61,375 nucleotides of DNA. It comes from Chthonomonas calidirosea. GTDB taxonomy: Bacteria > Armatimonadota > Fimbriimonadia > Fimbriimonadales > Fimbriimonadaceae. This document shows positions 8,081-14,545 of this stretch, piece by piece; the first letter of the stretch is position 1, and the number at the start of each line of letters is the position of its first letter. Made by a program: the position numbers and the translations under genes. Under the pieces are notes generated by a model. That model ran no database searches. It was not told where the DNA came from and worked only from the letters and a program-made list of their open reading frames with translations. The stretch lies in contig CAMCWC010000016.1 of NCBI GenBank assembly GCA_945882415.1, positions 1-61,375 of the forward strand. The letters are read 5' to 3'.

Positions 8081-9262
8081 TTACGGATTTTGAATCGTCT
8101 GGATCATTTCGGCCCAATATGCGGCAGTCTTTGTGTCCTTGCTCAGGGCGCGTGCCGCCTCGGCATGATTTCGAGCCGCCGCCAGGTCATTGAGGCGCAA
8201 AGCTACGTGGGCGCACACCGCTTCGTAGGGCAAATACGGCTCCGTCAACTGAGTCTTGGTAAGCAATGCATGTGCTGCTTCTGGACCATTCGCTTCCAAA
8301 GTCGCCGCAACGTGGCCAAGGCGATTGCTAGTGGTCGGTGCCACCGCGATCAGCGCCTCGTAAAGTCGCGCGATCTGGACGTAGCTCGGCAATCCCGTGA
8401 ACGCGCGCTGAACATGGGCGGATTGAATTGCCGCTTCGAGCTGGAAACGACCCGGTGACTTGTGCGCCGCAGCGGCTTGAAGGAGTTGTTCGGCGCTCTT
8501 GATCATCTCTGGGTCCCAGTCCGATGGATCCTGCTGCGAAAGCGGGACGTAAACATCTCGAACCACGGCGCGACGCGATTCGCAGAACAGGAGCAGGGCG
8601 AATAGCCCCATAGCTTCTGGATCACCTTCCGAAGCGATCACCAACGACCGGGCGAGATCCATCGCTTCCGTTGGTTCGGTCGTTCCCCAGTCTCGGCTGT
8701 AAAGTCCATAGATCGCCTGCAGGACGGACGGGAGACGTTGCTGAAATTCTTCGGGGTTTGGAAGCTCGGGGAGGATTTGCGCGTCTCGGATCTTTCGCTT
8801 CGCCCGCACTAGGCGTTGCCCAAGAGTTGCGGCGGGCATCAGGAACAGCTCTGACATGCTCTCGGCAGACATGCCAAGCACTAACTGAAGCATGAGCGGC
8901 GTTTGGATTTCGGGGGCAATGGCCGGGTGGGTGCAAAGAAAGAAGAGGCGGAGTCGCTCGTCCGGGAACATCGTGGGGTCTTCTGTTTCGGTGGGATCGG
9001 CGGCCTCCGCGAGGGATTCCAAAGGTGTGATCCGCCGTTCTCGGCGTTCGATGTCGATAACGCGATGGAGGGCTACCCGGCACAGCCAAGCTTCCGGATT
9101 TGGCGGCGTCGCGTCGTTCCAATCGGTCAGTGCCGAGGCAAAGGCGGCACTGACGGCGTCTTCTGAGCGAAGCAAGTCGAACCCTCGAGCGAGCAGATGA
9201 GAAAGAACTTTGCCGTAGCTCTCGCGAAAAACCTCACCTACCCGCTCCGAAGCATCCATCAA
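8081..9262 (-). CDS. ECF sigma factor with C-terminal extension (ECF42-like)
   Basis: A 393-residue protein with sigma region 2 (residues 8-75, FRESYGKVLSHLLARGFDLLRSEDAVSAAFASAL), sigma region 4 (about 105-165, including LMLQLVLGMSAESMSELFLMPAATLGQRLVRAKRKI) and a C-terminal helical, TPR-like extension of some 200 residues. This architecture, next to YCII/DGPF genes, is the hallmark of group ECF42, where the extension is needed for activity and no anti-sigma factor is encoded. It starts four bases after the stop of a YCII gene, so the three genes are an operon. The trigger and targets cannot be read from the sequence. Confidence 0.92.
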   Translation of the reverse strand: MMDASERVGEVFRESYGKVLSHLLARGFDLLRSEDAVSAAFASALTDWNDATPPNPEAWLCRVALHRVIDIERRERRITPLESLAEAADPTETEDPTMFPDERLRLFFLCTHPAIAPEIQTPLMLQLVLGMSAESMSELFLMPAATLGQRLVRAKRKIRDAQILPELPNPEEFQQRLPSVLQAIYGLYSRDWGTTEPTEAMDLARSLVIASEGDPEAMGLFALLLFCESRRAVVRDVYVPLSQQDPSDWDPEMIKSAEQLLQAAAAHKSPGRFQLEAAIQSAHVQRAFTGLPSYVQIARLYEALIAVAPTTSNRLGHVAATLEANGPEAAHALLTKTQLTEPYLPYEAVCAHVALRLNDLAAARNHAEAARALSKDTKTAAYWAEMIQTIQNP

Positions 9263-9266
9263 CTCC

Positions 9267-9626
9267 TCAGCTCGGGTCCGGAAGAATCGGCCGGACTTCT
9301 ACCGCACCACCTTCGGTGCAAGGCGCGAGTTTTGCCCAGGTCATGGCCTCATCTAGGGATGGAACATTGATGACTACGAGTCCGGCAAGTTGCTCTTTGG
9401 TGTCGGCTACCGGACCATCTTGAATGGTGAGTTCGCCCGCCGTGGCTCGCAAAGTGGTCGCGCTGCCGGGAACTTGAAGTCCTGCGCCGGCGCCCCGAAC
9501 GAGCACTCCCGCGTCGTCAAGCTGATCGATGTAAGCGCTCCAGGCGCCCCAGTATTGACCCGCAGACTCCGATTCGCGCTCCGAAAACTGGGCGCTGGTT
9601 TCGTAGAAAATTAAGCCGTATTTCAT
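9267..9626 (-). CDS. YCII-related (DGPF-type) protein
   Basis: A 119-residue dimeric alpha+beta barrel protein of the YCII family: it opens with MKYGLIFYE and carries TIQDGPVADTKEQLAGLVVI, the family's DGPF-like motif here written DGPV. Genes of this family accompany ECF42 sigma factors, but their biochemical role is not known. The start at 9626 is favoured because the domain begins there; the ATGA overlap with the upstream exported YCII gene (9623-9626) implies coupled translation. The frame extends 26 codons further upstream without homology. Confidence 0.87.
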   Translation of the reverse strand: MKYGLIFYETSAQFSERESESAGQYWGAWSAYIDQLDDAGVLVRGAGAGLQVPGSATTLRATAGELTIQDGPVADTKEQLAGLVVINVPSLDEAMTWAKLAPCTEGGAVEVRPILPDPS

Positions 9627-10075
9627 TTGCCCTTCTCCATATCTTGGTTCATCGGAAGCAGCTCTCGGACTTCGACGCGGCCGCCATCTTGAATTGCTGG
9701 GCAAGTGTTGGCGATGCTCACGGCAGCATCCAGCGACTCTGCCTTCACGATCAGATATCCGCTGAGATTAATCGTGCTGGCGTTAATGGCTCGTTTGCCT
9801 TTGCCATCTAGAACGACACCGGTGGTCGGCGGAAGTAAGGCAGAGCCGCTTTCGATGACGCCGGAGGCCCGGATTTTGCCGATGTATCCCATCCACTTTT
9901 CCCAGTACTTGGGTGCTGCCGCGCCGGTGCGGTCGCCGAAAGACTTTTGGGTCTCATAGAAGTAGATGCCGTACGACTTGGTTGCTGTTGTCGATGCCGT
10001 CGCTTGAGCGCGCGGATTGGAGAGCACAGTCGCCGCCACGATGGCGGAAAGAGAAAGGGCAATGAGCGTTTTCAT
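9623..10075 (-). CDS. Exported YCII-related protein
   Basis: A 150-residue protein beginning with a signal peptide (KTLIALSLSAIVAATVLSNP, about residues 2-28, likely cut after a small-residue site), followed by a complete YCII-like domain: YGIYFYETQKSF, YWEKWMGYIGKIRASG, then a KRAINASTINLSGYLIVKAESLDAAVSIA block. It has lost the DGPF motif seen in its cytoplasmic neighbour. The start at 10075 is set by AAGGA seven bases before the ATG. It is first in the operon with the second YCII gene and the ECF sigma factor. Export of a YCII domain is unusual and suggests a role outside the cytoplasm. Confidence 0.8.
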   Translation of the reverse strand: MKTLIALSLSAIVAATVLSNPRAQATASTTATKSYGIYFYETQKSFGDRTGAAAPKYWEKWMGYIGKIRASGVIESGSALLPPTTGVVLDGKGKRAINASTINLSGYLIVKAESLDAAVSIANTCPAIQDGGRVEVRELLPMNQDMEKGK

Positions 10076-10162
10076 GGGTTTCCTTTTTCGGACCAATTTG
10101 GGTCCTTCAAGGAGAAAGCGAATGGCGGAGGCCCATTTCGACACATGCCCAAAATTTTTTGA

Positions 10163-12565
10163 TCAATTGCGGGCGGTGCTGAAGCGCATCCGCAGGAGAC
10201 TCTTGATCTGAATGAGCGTGAACCCAACGAGAATGCTGCCCATCACCCAAGCGGCGGCGGTCGCATAGCCGAACTTGAGAAACATAAACGCGTTTTGCCA
10301 GACCTCGAGTCCGATGGTCCGAGTGGAGTTGAGCGGCCCGCCTTGGGTTAGGACAAACACATTCTCCATCGCCTTGAATCCGGCAATGAAAACTCCGAGG
10401 AGGTTAATCAGAACCAACGGCTTGATACCGGGGAGGGTGATGTACCGAATCTTTTCAAGCCAAGAAGCTCCGTCGATGTCCGCGGCTTCATAACGCTCCG
10501 GGGCAATGTTCTTAAGCGCGGCCAAATACAAGATCGACCCCGCTCCCGCTCCGGCCCAAATGCCTGGCAGGACCACGGCAAACATCGCGAGTTGCGGACT
10601 TCCGAGCCAGTCGTTCGCGGTCGGAATCGGGCCGTTCCCAAGCTTCATCCAAAGCGGATTGATGGCTTCGATGAAGGGCTTTAGGATCGTGTTGAGCAGT
10701 CCCGTATCGCTTTTCTCGTAAAACTGCCGCCAAACGAGGGAGACCACGATGGCGCTCGTCATGGCGGGCAGATAAAAGATCGTTCGGAAGAGAACGGTAA
10801 ACCGCGGAATCTCGTTGAGCGCGATCGCGAGAATGATCGGTAGGAAGAACCCGATGACTAAGCTGAGGGCAACGTAAACGAAGCTGTTCCAAACGCTTTG
10901 ATAGAACACCGGTTGGCTAAAGACGCCGATGAAGTTATCGAGCCCAACCCAAGACGCGCCGCCAATGAGTTTGTAATCCTGGAACGCAATTACCAATCCC
11001 CGGCCGAGCGGATAGTAAGCCCATGTGAAAATGCTAAGGGCGGCGGGCAAAAGACAAGCGATTAGGAAGGACCAGATTTGCGAACGCGGAATGCCAGCTG
11101 GCAGCCGTTCAATGACCTCGACGGCATTTCGGCGTTGCCAGAACCTCACCGAGAATCCGGTGGCGACGATGGCAAGCACGGCTAAAATTCCGGCCGCCCA
11201 GCCGCGTTTGGTCGCCATTTCTTCGGGAGGAATAAAGCCTAGGAGTTTCTGGTCCATCTCCTTCTGGGTTTCGGCGAGGATGTCCTTCGCCGGCCGATCT
11301 GGCTCTAGCCGTGCCCGATCAAGTGCCGCGTTGAGAACTTCATAAACCTGCTGGCAGTTTCGGCCGTATGGCTCGGGGTGACCCGTTTGGAAGAGCTCGC
11401 GGTTGGCTTTGACGTAGCTGGGATCGACTTGCGAGAGGTAGTCGTCGTAGCCGAACTTCTCCAGCCAGACCGGGTTCACGAGATTTCCGATTCCGAGCTC
11501 GACGCACTTCTGCGTGTTCACCCGCGCGGCTTCGTCTCCGGCGAAGAATTTGATAAATCGCCAGCACGCATCAAGCTTCTTCGGGTCCGTCACCCGGGAC
11601 GAGATGGCCCACATTCCGGCGTTGATCTCGTTGCTGCGTCCGGCAGGTCCGGCGGGTAAGGCGCTGACGCCGATGACGCTCGGGCTGAGGTCGCTCTGGT
11701 TGAGCACAACGTCGTTGGTGTAGCCAAACCACATCGCCATCTTGCCGGTGTTGATGTCGGTTGTGAAATCGGTGGCAAGGTGCGCGACCGGGCCAGTTCC
11801 GTCTTTCTGCTTGAGAAAGAGCTTTCGGAAGAATTCCACCGCAAGCTCGCCGCCCTTGGAATTAATCTTGGATTGCCAGACTCCAGATTCGGTTGGGGCG
11901 ACAACTTCGCCCCCGGCTTGATACAAAAAGTTCTGCCAGTGATAGCTTGGGACTTGGCTGAGGGCATATCCGCTGCGGCCCGGCTTGGTGAGTTTTAGAC
12001 AGTATTCGTAGAACTGATCCCAGGTTTCGGGTGGCTTGGCCGGGTCGAGTCCGACTTCAAGAAAGAAGTCCTTTCGGTAATAGAGCGCGATGGCAACCTG
12101 GAAAAACGGGATGGCGTACGACTTACCATCGAAGCTCTTGAGGACCTTCAGCACCGTCGGATTGACCCGGGCCATGACCTCTGGATCTTGAGCAATGAGG
12201 TCATCGACGGGGCGACAAAAACCTTGTTCCACGAAGGTGTAGTACTGCCGGAAGTTGACGTAAAAGACGTCCGGGGCGCGGTCGCCCGCCATCGACATCA
12301 GGAACATATTGTCCGCCTGCGGCCCGACGAGATTTAGTCCCCCGGCGTTCACGACGCGTACGTCTGGATTTGTGCGATGGAACTCTTCGAAGACCGCCCG
12401 TCGAATCTGGGCGGTCGTGGCAGTGGCTTCTTTCGGCGGGATTCCGTAGCCGGGGCCGGCCATCATGCGGATCTCGGTGGGAGCTTCCGCTTGCGCCAGC
12501 GCACTCGATCCGAGTAGCAAACTGAGACCGGCAAGCAGGAACGATCGAAGTCGGGCCGAGATCAA
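10163..12565 (-). CDS. Sugar-binding protein fused to ABC permease
   Basis: An 800-residue single polypeptide. Residues 1-24 are a signal peptide; about 30-440 are an extracellular solute-binding protein of the carbohydrate (CUT1) type (DVFYVNFRQYYTFVEQGF, the YAIPFFQVAIALYYRKD strand, WDQFYEYC). A transmembrane helix near 455-475 and a basic turn lead to a MalF/UgpA-like permease (about 495-795), complete with the EAA loop YEAADIDGASWLEKIRYITLPG that docks the ATPase. Normally these are separate proteins. No ATPase or second permease gene is adjacent, so partners must be elsewhere. The TTG start is nine bases after TAGAAT. I find no frameshift at the junction; the frame is continuous. Confidence 0.9.
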   Translation of the reverse strand: MISARLRSFLLAGLSLLLGSSALAQAEAPTEIRMMAGPGYGIPPKEATATTAQIRRAVFEEFHRTNPDVRVVNAGGLNLVGPQADNMFLMSMAGDRAPDVFYVNFRQYYTFVEQGFCRPVDDLIAQDPEVMARVNPTVLKVLKSFDGKSYAIPFFQVAIALYYRKDFFLEVGLDPAKPPETWDQFYEYCLKLTKPGRSGYALSQVPSYHWQNFLYQAGGEVVAPTESGVWQSKINSKGGELAVEFFRKLFLKQKDGTGPVAHLATDFTTDINTGKMAMWFGYTNDVVLNQSDLSPSVIGVSALPAGPAGRSNEINAGMWAISSRVTDPKKLDACWRFIKFFAGDEAARVNTQKCVELGIGNLVNPVWLEKFGYDDYLSQVDPSYVKANRELFQTGHPEPYGRNCQQVYEVLNAALDRARLEPDRPAKDILAETQKEMDQKLLGFIPPEEMATKRGWAAGILAVLAIVATGFSVRFWQRRNAVEVIERLPAGIPRSQIWSFLIACLLPAALSIFTWAYYPLGRGLVIAFQDYKLIGGASWVGLDNFIGVFSQPVFYQSVWNSFVYVALSLVIGFFLPIILAIALNEIPRFTVLFRTIFYLPAMTSAIVVSLVWRQFYEKSDTGLLNTILKPFIEAINPLWMKLGNGPIPTANDWLGSPQLAMFAVVLPGIWAGAGAGSILYLAALKNIAPERYEAADIDGASWLEKIRYITLPGIKPLVLINLLGVFIAGFKAMENVFVLTQGGPLNSTRTIGLEVWQNAFMFLKFGYATAAAWVMGSILVGFTLIQIKSLLRMRFSTARN

Positions 12566-12907
12566 CGTAGCGACATTCTACTGGACGCATCCCTGACCTG
12601 CTGAGATGAATTTTAGGGTCCAGAAATAGAACTGGTCGGTGCCAAAAAGACATCGACCAGAATCTGCGATGTTTGTCGTAAGCGAAGCGCTACTTCAAAC
12701 AAGGATATGAGGCTATTTATGGAATCCAGTATCGAGTTGGTTTCGTCAATGTTTTATCCCGACAGAGGAAAAAGCTAACTGCGAAGCAGAAAACAAAAAC
12801 CGCAAAGACTGCGGCAAAGGGCCGGTGGTGGCCACATCGCCAACTCCTGACAAGAAATAGGCTAGTGGATTTTGTTCCCAAAATTCGTGTCACAAATTTC
12901 CATTACA

Positions 12908-12921
12908 GTACACATGTCTAC
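12908..12921. promoter_or_regulatory. Inverted repeat before recA, possible LexA-type operator
   Basis: GTACACATGTCTAC is palindromic at 12 of 14 positions and lies six bases before the proposed -35 box of recA. The position and symmetry suit an SOS repressor site, but the sequence is not a close match to known LexA boxes. Confidence 0.3.
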
Positions 12922-12927
12922 GTCTGG

Positions 12928-12955
12928 TTACAAATATTCAGAAAATATGTATTCT
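12928..12955 (+). promoter_or_regulatory. Probable recA promoter
   Basis: TTACAA (12928-12933) and TATTCT (12950-12955) with a 16-base spacer, about 50 bases before the recA start. It is a moderate match to the vegetative consensus in an AT-rich stretch. Confidence 0.4.
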
Positions 12956-13006
12956 TTTGTCTAGCATTTTTATTTTTTCTTTGGTAAAGTGAGTGAAGAG
13001 GAACCC

Positions 13007-14095
13007 GTGAGAAAGGCAGCCGCGAATTCAGAAGTTAACGTTGACAAGTCCGACCGAGAGAAGGCATTAGAAGCCGCCCTTGGCCAGGTTGAGCGATCGT
13101 TCGGAAAGGGCGCGGTCATGCGCATGGGCGATACCAGCCGAGTTGGAATTGAAGCGATTCCGACGGGGTCACTTTCCTTGGACATGGCTCTCGGCATCGG
13201 CGGACTTCCCCGCGGACGAATCACGGAAATCTACGGACCAGAATCTGGTGGTAAATCGACCCTCGCTCTTCACTGCGTAGCCGAAGCTCAAAAGCTTGGC
13301 GGACTTGCGCTTTACGTCGATGCCGAGCACGCGCTTGACACCGAGTACGCCCGGACCCTTGGCGTCGACGTGGATCGACTCTACATCTCTCAGCCAAGCA
13401 ACGGAGAAGAAGCCCTCGAAATCGCCGACGCGATTACCAAGTCGGGCGCCATCGACATCGTCGTTATCGACTCGGTTGCTGCCCTCGTTCCGAAAGCAGA
13501 AATCGAAGGCGAGATGGGCGACACGTTCGTCGGCATCCAGGCCCGAATGATGAGCCAAGCCCTGCGAAAGCTTGGTGGAACGCTCAACAAGTCCCGCACC
13601 GCGGCCATCTTCATCAACCAGCTTCGAGAGAAGATTGGCGTGATGTACGGCAACCCAGAGACCACTCCGGGTGGTCGAGCGCTTAAGTTCTGGGCAAGCG
13701 TTCGGCTTGAAGTTCGAAAGGGCGACGCCATCAAAACGGGAACGGACCAGATTGGTGCCCGAACCAAGGTCAAGGTCGTAAAGAACAAGGTGGCTCCGCC
13801 GTTCAAGACCGCGGAGTTCGACATGATTTTCGGCAAGGGAATCAGCCGCGCCGGTGATGTTCTCGATATGGCTGCCCTCAAAGGCATCATTCAGAAGTCA
13901 GGAACCTACTTCAACTACGGCGAGATCCGACTTGGCCAGGGCCGAGACAACGCCCGAAACTTCTTGGAATCTCATCCTGAGGTCTTTACCGAAATCGATA
14001 AGAAAGTCCGTGAAATGTTCTTGGCAGAAATGGCGAAGTTGCCACCGGAGCCAGTGAGCGAGGACGAACCGCTGGACGAAGATCTCGGCCTATAG
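13007..14095 (+). CDS. recA: Recombinase RecA
   Basis: ATP-dependent strand-exchange protein and SOS co-protease. Walker A is GPESGGKST (usual GPESSGKTT), Walker B is [24 protein letters not shown], and the [22 protein letters not shown] loop is intact; the C-terminus ends in the usual acidic tail ([12 protein letters not shown]). I prefer the GTG at 13007, five bases after AGAGG, giving 362 residues; a second in-frame GTG at 12989 lacks a ribosome binding site and would add six residues. It is the first gene of recA-recX-rny-ymdB, a linkage seen in many Gram-positive and related genomes. Confidence 0.98.
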
Positions 14096-14113
14096 GCTCG
14101 GTAACCGTTCTTC

Positions 14114-14545
14114 ATGGACCAAACCTACGAAGAAAGTCTTCGCCGGGTGATGCTTCGGCTATCGCGCGGCGATTTGACCGAGGCCGAAGCTCGTCGCCTG
14201 ACGGGCCGCGACGATGTTGTTGAGCACCTGAGAGAAAAGCGGCTGCTCAACGACCACCGGGTGGCCGAGGCGCTGATCCACCGGTGGTCAGGGCGGAACA
14301 TGCGCGGCCGAACCTGGCTTCAGTCCGAGTTCGAGCGGCGGGATATTCCTTCTGCCATCGCTGGACCCCTTTTAGAGAATCTGCCTAGCGACTTCGATCG
14401 GGCAAATGAACTGCTTGGTCTGGTTCGAAAACCAGATGCGGTTCGCAAAGCGCGCTTTTTGGCATCGAGAGGGTTTGCCGAAGAAGTAATCGACTCAGTT
14501 CTCGGCGATAGTCTCCGAGAGGCCACCGACTGGCGTCACAATTGA
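14114..14545 (+). CDS. recX: RecX regulatory protein
   Basis: RecX binds RecA filaments and limits their growth. This 143-residue, all-helical protein shows tandem three-helix repeats (LRRVMLRLSRGDLTEAEARRLTGR, VVEHLREKRLLNDHRVAEALIHRW, then RGRTWLQSEFERRDIPSAI), the usual RecX pattern. It begins 18 bases after recA, which strongly supports the assignment since the family diverges quickly. Its C-terminal repeat is present (VRKARFLASRGFAEEVIDSVL). It is followed four bases later by rny. Confidence 0.88.
   Translation: MDQTYEESLRRVMLRLSRGDLTEAEARRLTGRDDVVEHLREKRLLNDHRVAEALIHRWSGRNMRGRTWLQSEFERRDIPSAIAGPLLENLPSDFDRANELLGLVRKPDAVRKARFLASRGFAEEVIDSVLGDSLREATDWRHN

Follow-up and report, generated by a model that had tools for sequence, protein, structure and literature searches.

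Gene features and topology of the fusion

The window, i.e. the whole stretch of 61,375 nucleotides that was analysed, carries on its reverse strand (10163-12565) a single unbroken frame of 800 codons with a TTG start, as read from its open reading frames. An earlier note had described the product as a binding receptor and a MalF-type permease in one polypeptide, and Pfam bore this out, with SBP_bac_1 at residues 53-347 (E 5.2e-33) and BPD_transp_1 at residues 574-783 (E 3.6e-6; 27.3 bits against a cut-off of 26.4). The features are as follows:

10163..12565 (-): SBP-MalF-type permease fusion, 800 aa, TTG start (frame, Pfam, orthologues)
12485..12565 (-): signal peptide, residues 1-27, end approximate (hydropathy and charge; cleavage site by eye)
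11231..12484 (-): extracytoplasmic sugar-type binding domain, residues ~28-445 (Pfam; model against solved binding proteins)
11138..11194 (-): connecting transmembrane helix (TM0), residues 458-476 (hydropathy, model, orthologue comparison)
11078..11137 (-): K/R-rich cytoplasmic linker, residues 477-496 (K+R fraction, 28 orthologues)
10166..11077 (-): six-helix MalF-type permease, residues 497-800 (Pfam, hydropathy, PDB profile match)
10430..10492 (-): EAA loop, predicted ATPase contact, residues 692-712 (conservation in 28 orthologues)

Mean hydropathy over 28 orthologues placed the signal peptide, which had been proposed from the sequence, at residues 9-27 and the connecting helix at 458-476, followed by the linker at 477-496 with a K+R fraction of 0.298. 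The loops of the six permease helices alternate in the same orthologues between K+R fractions of 0.057-0.074 outside and 0.142-0.274 inside, in agreement with the claim that one extra helix keeps the receptor outside and the start of the permease inside. Ten of the 22 positions of the EAA region (692-713) are invariant among the 28 orthologues, and the presence of an EAA loop is confirmed. A frameshift or missed stop codon at the junction, named in the note as what would refute it, can be set aside: the same fusion is found in 28 of 41 genomes, that of the window included, and on contigs titled as other phyla, and since it recurs in independent assemblies, an assembly error is excluded. The alignment of close orthologues (A2) kept 27 of the 28 sequences, L063 being omitted for one TAG in frame, and that of diverse fusions (A3) comprised the window protein and 23 of 26 fusion-bearing loci, with L154, L159 and L173 omitted as partial or broken.

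The fusion family profile matched AlgM1 in the PDB (E 1.4e-28). The locus holds both an SBP_bac_1-type receptor and a MalF-type half-channel with EAA loop, as expected of a CUT1/MalFGK-type importer. The scores of the NCBIfam MalF and UgpA models were far under their equivalog cut-offs, so the fusion permease is no known equivalog. Its outer loops are ~40-50 residues long, and the large P2-type loop of MalF is absent. AlphaFold2 modelling with the window protein and 23 related fusions gave the same domain order at moderate confidence (mean pLDDT 77, pTM 0.69; residues 744-777 below pLDDT 50, final helices low). By eye, many Kiritimatiellae/Lentisphaerae fusions carry an extra hydrophobic stretch between core helices 3 and 4 (A3 columns ~815-880).

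Of five regions compared, TM0 and the linker show the lowest conservation, which could suggest that the fusion acts as a sensor or is processed into separate receptor and permease proteins. We consider this very unlikely: TM0 is hydrophobic in all 28 close and all 24 diverse fusions (best 19-residue mean at least 1.75), the EAA loop is retained, and the three genomes lacking an OB_MalK match are also without the fusion and its partner (see below). Constant hydrophobicity with variable letters fits a helix whose sole need is to cross the membrane. Positive net charge follows TM0 in all 28 close fusions and in just 15 of the 24 diverse ones.

Fold of the receptor domain and likely substrate

The model of the binding domain matched solved structures with Z 29.1-34.0 among the 50 matches listed, the best being 5ci5_B (Z 34.0, 3.0 A, 371 residues). 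The solute-binding proteins among these 50 are mostly oligosaccharide-binding; the list also includes dinucleotide-binding and glycerophosphodiester-binding proteins (7c0l, 6r1b and others) and UgpB, and with these non-sugar proteins in the list, the fold by itself is not enough to identify the substrate as a sugar. Among 20 neighbour proteins encoded beside distant fusion-MalG pairs, four pass the cut-off of a carbohydrate-related Pfam family (galactokinase, melibiase, GH123 and GH106), and the other 16 have no carbohydrate family above the Pfam cut-off. The fold, together with some neighbour genes, suggests that the solute is most likely an oligosaccharide or a related compound.

Genomic setting and search for the remaining subunits

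No MalG or MalK gene adjoins the fusion according to the window's ORFs and Pfam. Downstream on the same strand (8081-10144) lie genes for two YCII-domain proteins and a Sigma70_r2/DUF6596 protein, and in G014, a near relative, YCII/sigma-type genes stand next to the fusion as well (L023, L096). The divergent neighbour of the fusion, named by eye, is recA (window 10163-14095), which stands beside the fusion in several relatives too (L023, L024, L026, L028 and others).

The genome of the window (G000) has 25 places matching BPD_transp_1 and ten matching SBP_bac_1, three of the latter within fusion-length frames, and a single OB_MalK match, on C5, which supplies the candidate MalK-type ATPase with OB fold. 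Reading of coordinates left three permeases unpaired: the fusion itself, C2:280290 and C15:69790. The second was rejected as partner, as by eye it adjoins an ABC ATPase of its own and a binding-type protein of another kind. The third belongs to a MalG-type gene at C15:68779-70317 (513 residues) that adjoins a sigma-70 gene (identified by eye). The search for a partner permease and ATPase proposed in the note thus yielded a linked MalG at a distant locus and one OB_MalK in the genome, and none beside the fusion.

Co-occurrence and linkage with a MalG-type gene

Orthologues of the fusion and of this MalG were found in the same 28 of 41 genomes (that of the window and 40 relatives), with identities of 51-100% for the fusion and 53-100% for MalG, except in G026 (two pieces, 64 and 33%). 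OB_MalK is single in 34 of the 41 genomes, present more than once in four and absent in three; the latter (G027, G030, G034) have no match to the fusion or MalG query either. The pair is missing from 13 genomes, and ten of these retain an OB_MalK, as expected if it serves other importers. With one match per query at E 0.001, G036 and G038 (88 and 91% complete) show a single pair, the sole one of its class seen there.

Among 151 genomes of the phylum, 72 have both proteins, two the fusion only, three MalG only and 74 neither, at thresholds of 1e-60 and 1e-55 chosen by us; the genomes are related and the counts not independent. Of the five among 77 with one protein, three are at most 80% complete, one is 87% complete, and the fifth (G070, 92%) has matches of 29-30% only. 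The two genes are adjacent in the order fusion-MalG in 36 of the 72 genomes, ~8 kb apart in one, far apart on one contig in eight and on different contigs in 27, where distances are those between matched parts and different contigs may include contig breaks. They are split in 18 of 18 genomes of the window's family (Fimbriimonadaceae) and adjacent in 36 of the 54 genomes with both outside it. As the genes are never adjacent in the window's family, the case for their pairing there is built on co-occurrence and on distantly related operons. In G013 and G020 the two genes of a diverged pair stand side by side, the fusion frame of G020 (L083:5938-9000, 1020 aa) being longer than that of the window.

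When the MalG alignment was compared with named genome contigs, 80 loci were obtained. A fusion lies on the same strand at most 1.6 kb upstream in 24 of them (at most 130 bp in 21) and 4.3 and 7.7 kb upstream in two more; at the other 54 it is absent from the fetched flank, some flanks being shortened by contig ends. The loci with both genes are titled Armatimonadetes, Kiritimatiellae, Lentisphaerae, Verrucomicrobia, Planctomycetota and Elusimicrobia, among others. In two Kiritimatiellaeota records (L176, L177) an ABC_tran + OB_MalK + TOBE_2 gene follows after 12 bases, placing a MalK-type ATPase within the operon; ORF clustering covered 35 of the 80 loci, and the ATPase cluster comprised seven, with Pfam scans of L176 and L177. 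The L177 MalG is matched at 1e-60 in 36 of 145 genomes from the phylum to which the L177 genome belongs. Family members also occur on contigs titled 'Methanoregulaceae archaeon' (L103) and 'Actinomycetota bacterium' (L147), possibly mistitled or from mixed bins.

The linked gene at C15:68779-70317 is therefore likely to encode the second, MalG-type half-channel, to judge from sequence comparison. The fusion could instead act without it, as a homodimer like GlnPQ or with the MalG of another system: neither MalG nor MalK stands beside it in the window, the genome offers 25 BPD_transp_1 places, and homodimers with linked receptors (GlnPQ, PMC8025302) and transporters with two linked receptors (OpuA, PMC11065425) are described in the excerpts of those papers. 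We hold this to be unlikely, given that the fusion shares its presence pattern with one particular MalG, that the two are adjacent in so many genomes outside the family and in 24 of the 80 loci, and that G036 and G038 show this pair alone.

The MalG-type partner and its repeat insert

The MalG-type proteins have an extracytoplasmic insert between helices 1 and 2, of ~245 residues in the window's family and up to 473 elsewhere. An alignment of 46 of the 80 MalG loci (A4) was used to build a profile of the repeated unit, which found two units in the window's partner and two to five per insert overall. The 140 unit matches in 46 of 46 inserts are partly by construction, since the profile was trained on these same inserts; it gave no match in 460 shuffled inserts, 46 cores or 24 fusions. 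A model of the partner orthologue L099 (94% identical) reached a mean pLDDT of 86.7. As a whole it aligned with MalG and AlgM2 chains at Z ~20 over 260-266 residues, the permease core being what was matched in the listed rows of the structure search. Its insert is nearly all helix, with two short strands and no barrel (block means 83-97).

Searched against the PDB, the insert alignment profile had beta-galactosidases on top (E 2.9e-5); the top five of 27 sequences at E 10 were glycoside hydrolases and the sixth was a fumarase, 1yfm. Pfam GH42 (Glyco_hydro_42, PF02449) was matched by 32 of the 46 inserts at E 0.1 (best E 2.3e-21) and not by 14, and the L149 insert has three such stretches. In the ten proteins for which it was displayed (including L099 and L083) the stretch falls within profile positions 147-213 of 376. 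At E 0.01 Pfam finds no GH42 in the partner from the window's genome, its near orthologue L099 matches at E 0.043 only, and 16 of 27 partner members in the window's order match only at E 1 (best 0.0047). As the likeness is weak in single sequences, it rests in the window's lineage on the family.

The matches to Glyco_hydro_42, strong in the best of the 46 inserts, raise the question of an active glycoside hydrolase, which we regard as extremely improbable. The displayed stretches are short and tandemly repeated, and the whole catalytic barrel of a GH42 beta-galactosidase is seen neither in the ten displayed stretches nor in the L099 model. In 1kwg the match covers residues 151-181, beyond the acid/base residue Glu141 and far from Glu312. 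The most fitting description of the insert is a series of GH42-like fragments in tandem, with no catalytic barrel. Such an array might itself bind or position an oligosaccharide in the manner of a carbohydrate-binding module, instead of docking the receptor; its units resemble a stretch of a sugar enzyme, and their number varies by lineage and could track substrate size. This is a serious though somewhat less probable option, the matched stretch (positions 147-213 of 376) not being a known sugar site.

Comparison with known systems

Licht et al. (2019, Res Microbiol) reportedly described a maltose transporter in which MalE and MalF form a fusion. Like the window's fusion, it has a sugar-type receptor and a MalF-type permease in one chain. 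The PDB entry 6ffl, the 'MalE domain' of Bdellovibrio, which we take to be the MalE domain of that fusion, has the same binding-domain fold as the window's protein (6ffl_A, Z 29.8, 3.4 A, 363 residues) at 15% identity. The excerpts of two later papers cite Licht et al. 2019 for the fused MalE-MalF maltose transporter (PMC7756565, PMC9045158). With this precedent in print, and three such fusions in the window's genome alone, the view that the arrangement is unusual for CUT1 transporters needs to be revised.

E. coli MalFGK2 and the alginate importer AlgM1M2 share with the present system MalF/MalG-type half-channels, the EAA loop and a MalK-type ATPase. They differ from it in that their receptor is separate and not attached, and in that here the fusion is without a large P2-type loop and the MalG-type partner bears a repeat insert. 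In GlnPQ and OpuA the receptor is covalently joined to the half-channel, as in the window's fusion; according to the excerpts available, GlnPQ is a homodimer with tandem receptors, OpuA has two receptors, and both serve other substrate classes. Their complexes consist of identical fused subunits. The fusion described here is strongly linked in genomes to a distinct MalG-type partner, and its complex would be expected to combine two unlike half-channels, just one of them with a receptor. GH42 beta-galactosidases (PF02449) match the insert units over part of their profile; their barrel is missing from the insert model, and the units stand in tandem inside a membrane permease.

In ten of 1056 plasmid records a single place accounts for 80% or more of the fusion, and all five annotated pairs among the 15 plasmid matches listed are two separate genes.

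Proposed mechanism and significance

The fusion is, with high probability, one half of a type I (CUT1/MalFGK-like) importer completed by the distant MalG and the sole OB_MalK. Computation supports the order of the domains, the pattern of topology, the linkage to the partner, the lone OB_MalK match and the repeat insert; the complex, its stoichiometry, the sugar substrate and the cradle role described below are inferred. The N-terminus would be exported and the binding domain would fold outside the inner membrane; TM0 would then cross inward, followed by the short basic linker and the inserted MalF-type half-channel. The fusion would pair with one MalG-type half-channel from G000:C15:68779-70317, and the drive would probably come from the only OB_MalK-type ATPase of the genome (G000:C5), shared with other CUT1 importers. 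Each complex would thus have one permanently attached receptor, which would close on its solute outside, already held at the channel, and hand it over when MalK binds ATP.

According to the title of a cited paper, the P2 loop of E. coli MalF contacts MalE throughout the transport cycle. Since the fusion lacks a P2 loop and its partner bears a large outer insert, we propose that this insert may stand beside the receptor as a docking cradle, in place of P2. Transport competence of a MalE-MalF fusion is stated in PMC7756565, so the receptor need not be fully released. On a wider view, there is about an even chance that these proteins form a clade spanning Armatimonadota and the Planctomycetota-Verrucomicrobiota-Lentisphaerota, with the receptor on MalF and a GH42-derived tandem cradle on MalG, in which the window's family split an ancient operon and has kept or lost the two loci together.

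A receptor-permease fusion as such is already known. New are the conserved clade, its splitting into two loci and the repeat-bearing MalG-type partner; in a literature search with most subscription journals outside it, the fusion-MalG pair, the GH42-like permease units and the conserved splitting were undescribed. The system offers a natural test of receptor tethering in the best-studied class of ABC importers, the tethered case being one receptor per transporter against a large free excess, and suggests the possibility of a repeated enzyme fragment serving as a permease domain. An isolated gene of poorly studied phyla gains a probable function and partner, in a pair that can be the only representative of its class observed in a given genome.

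Other fusions in the genome

The second receptor-permease fusion of the window's genome (L001:6351-8825, 824 aa) overlaps a 582-aa MalG-type permease (L001:8822-10570); neither the long N-terminal part of that permease nor its insert matches Pfam at E 0.01. The best tree placed the other two fusions among free MalF proteins (three changes), and a single clade for all three was not rejected (AU p 0.124), in a data set that carried a long-branch warning and held just six free MalF proteins, all from this genome. Independent origins of the three fusions are favoured by these sequences, short of being shown. The third fusion (L002:11027-13432, 801 aa) has as its neighbour an ordinary 299-aa MalG (13432-14331), so a repeat insert in the neighbouring permease is not required for a fusion.
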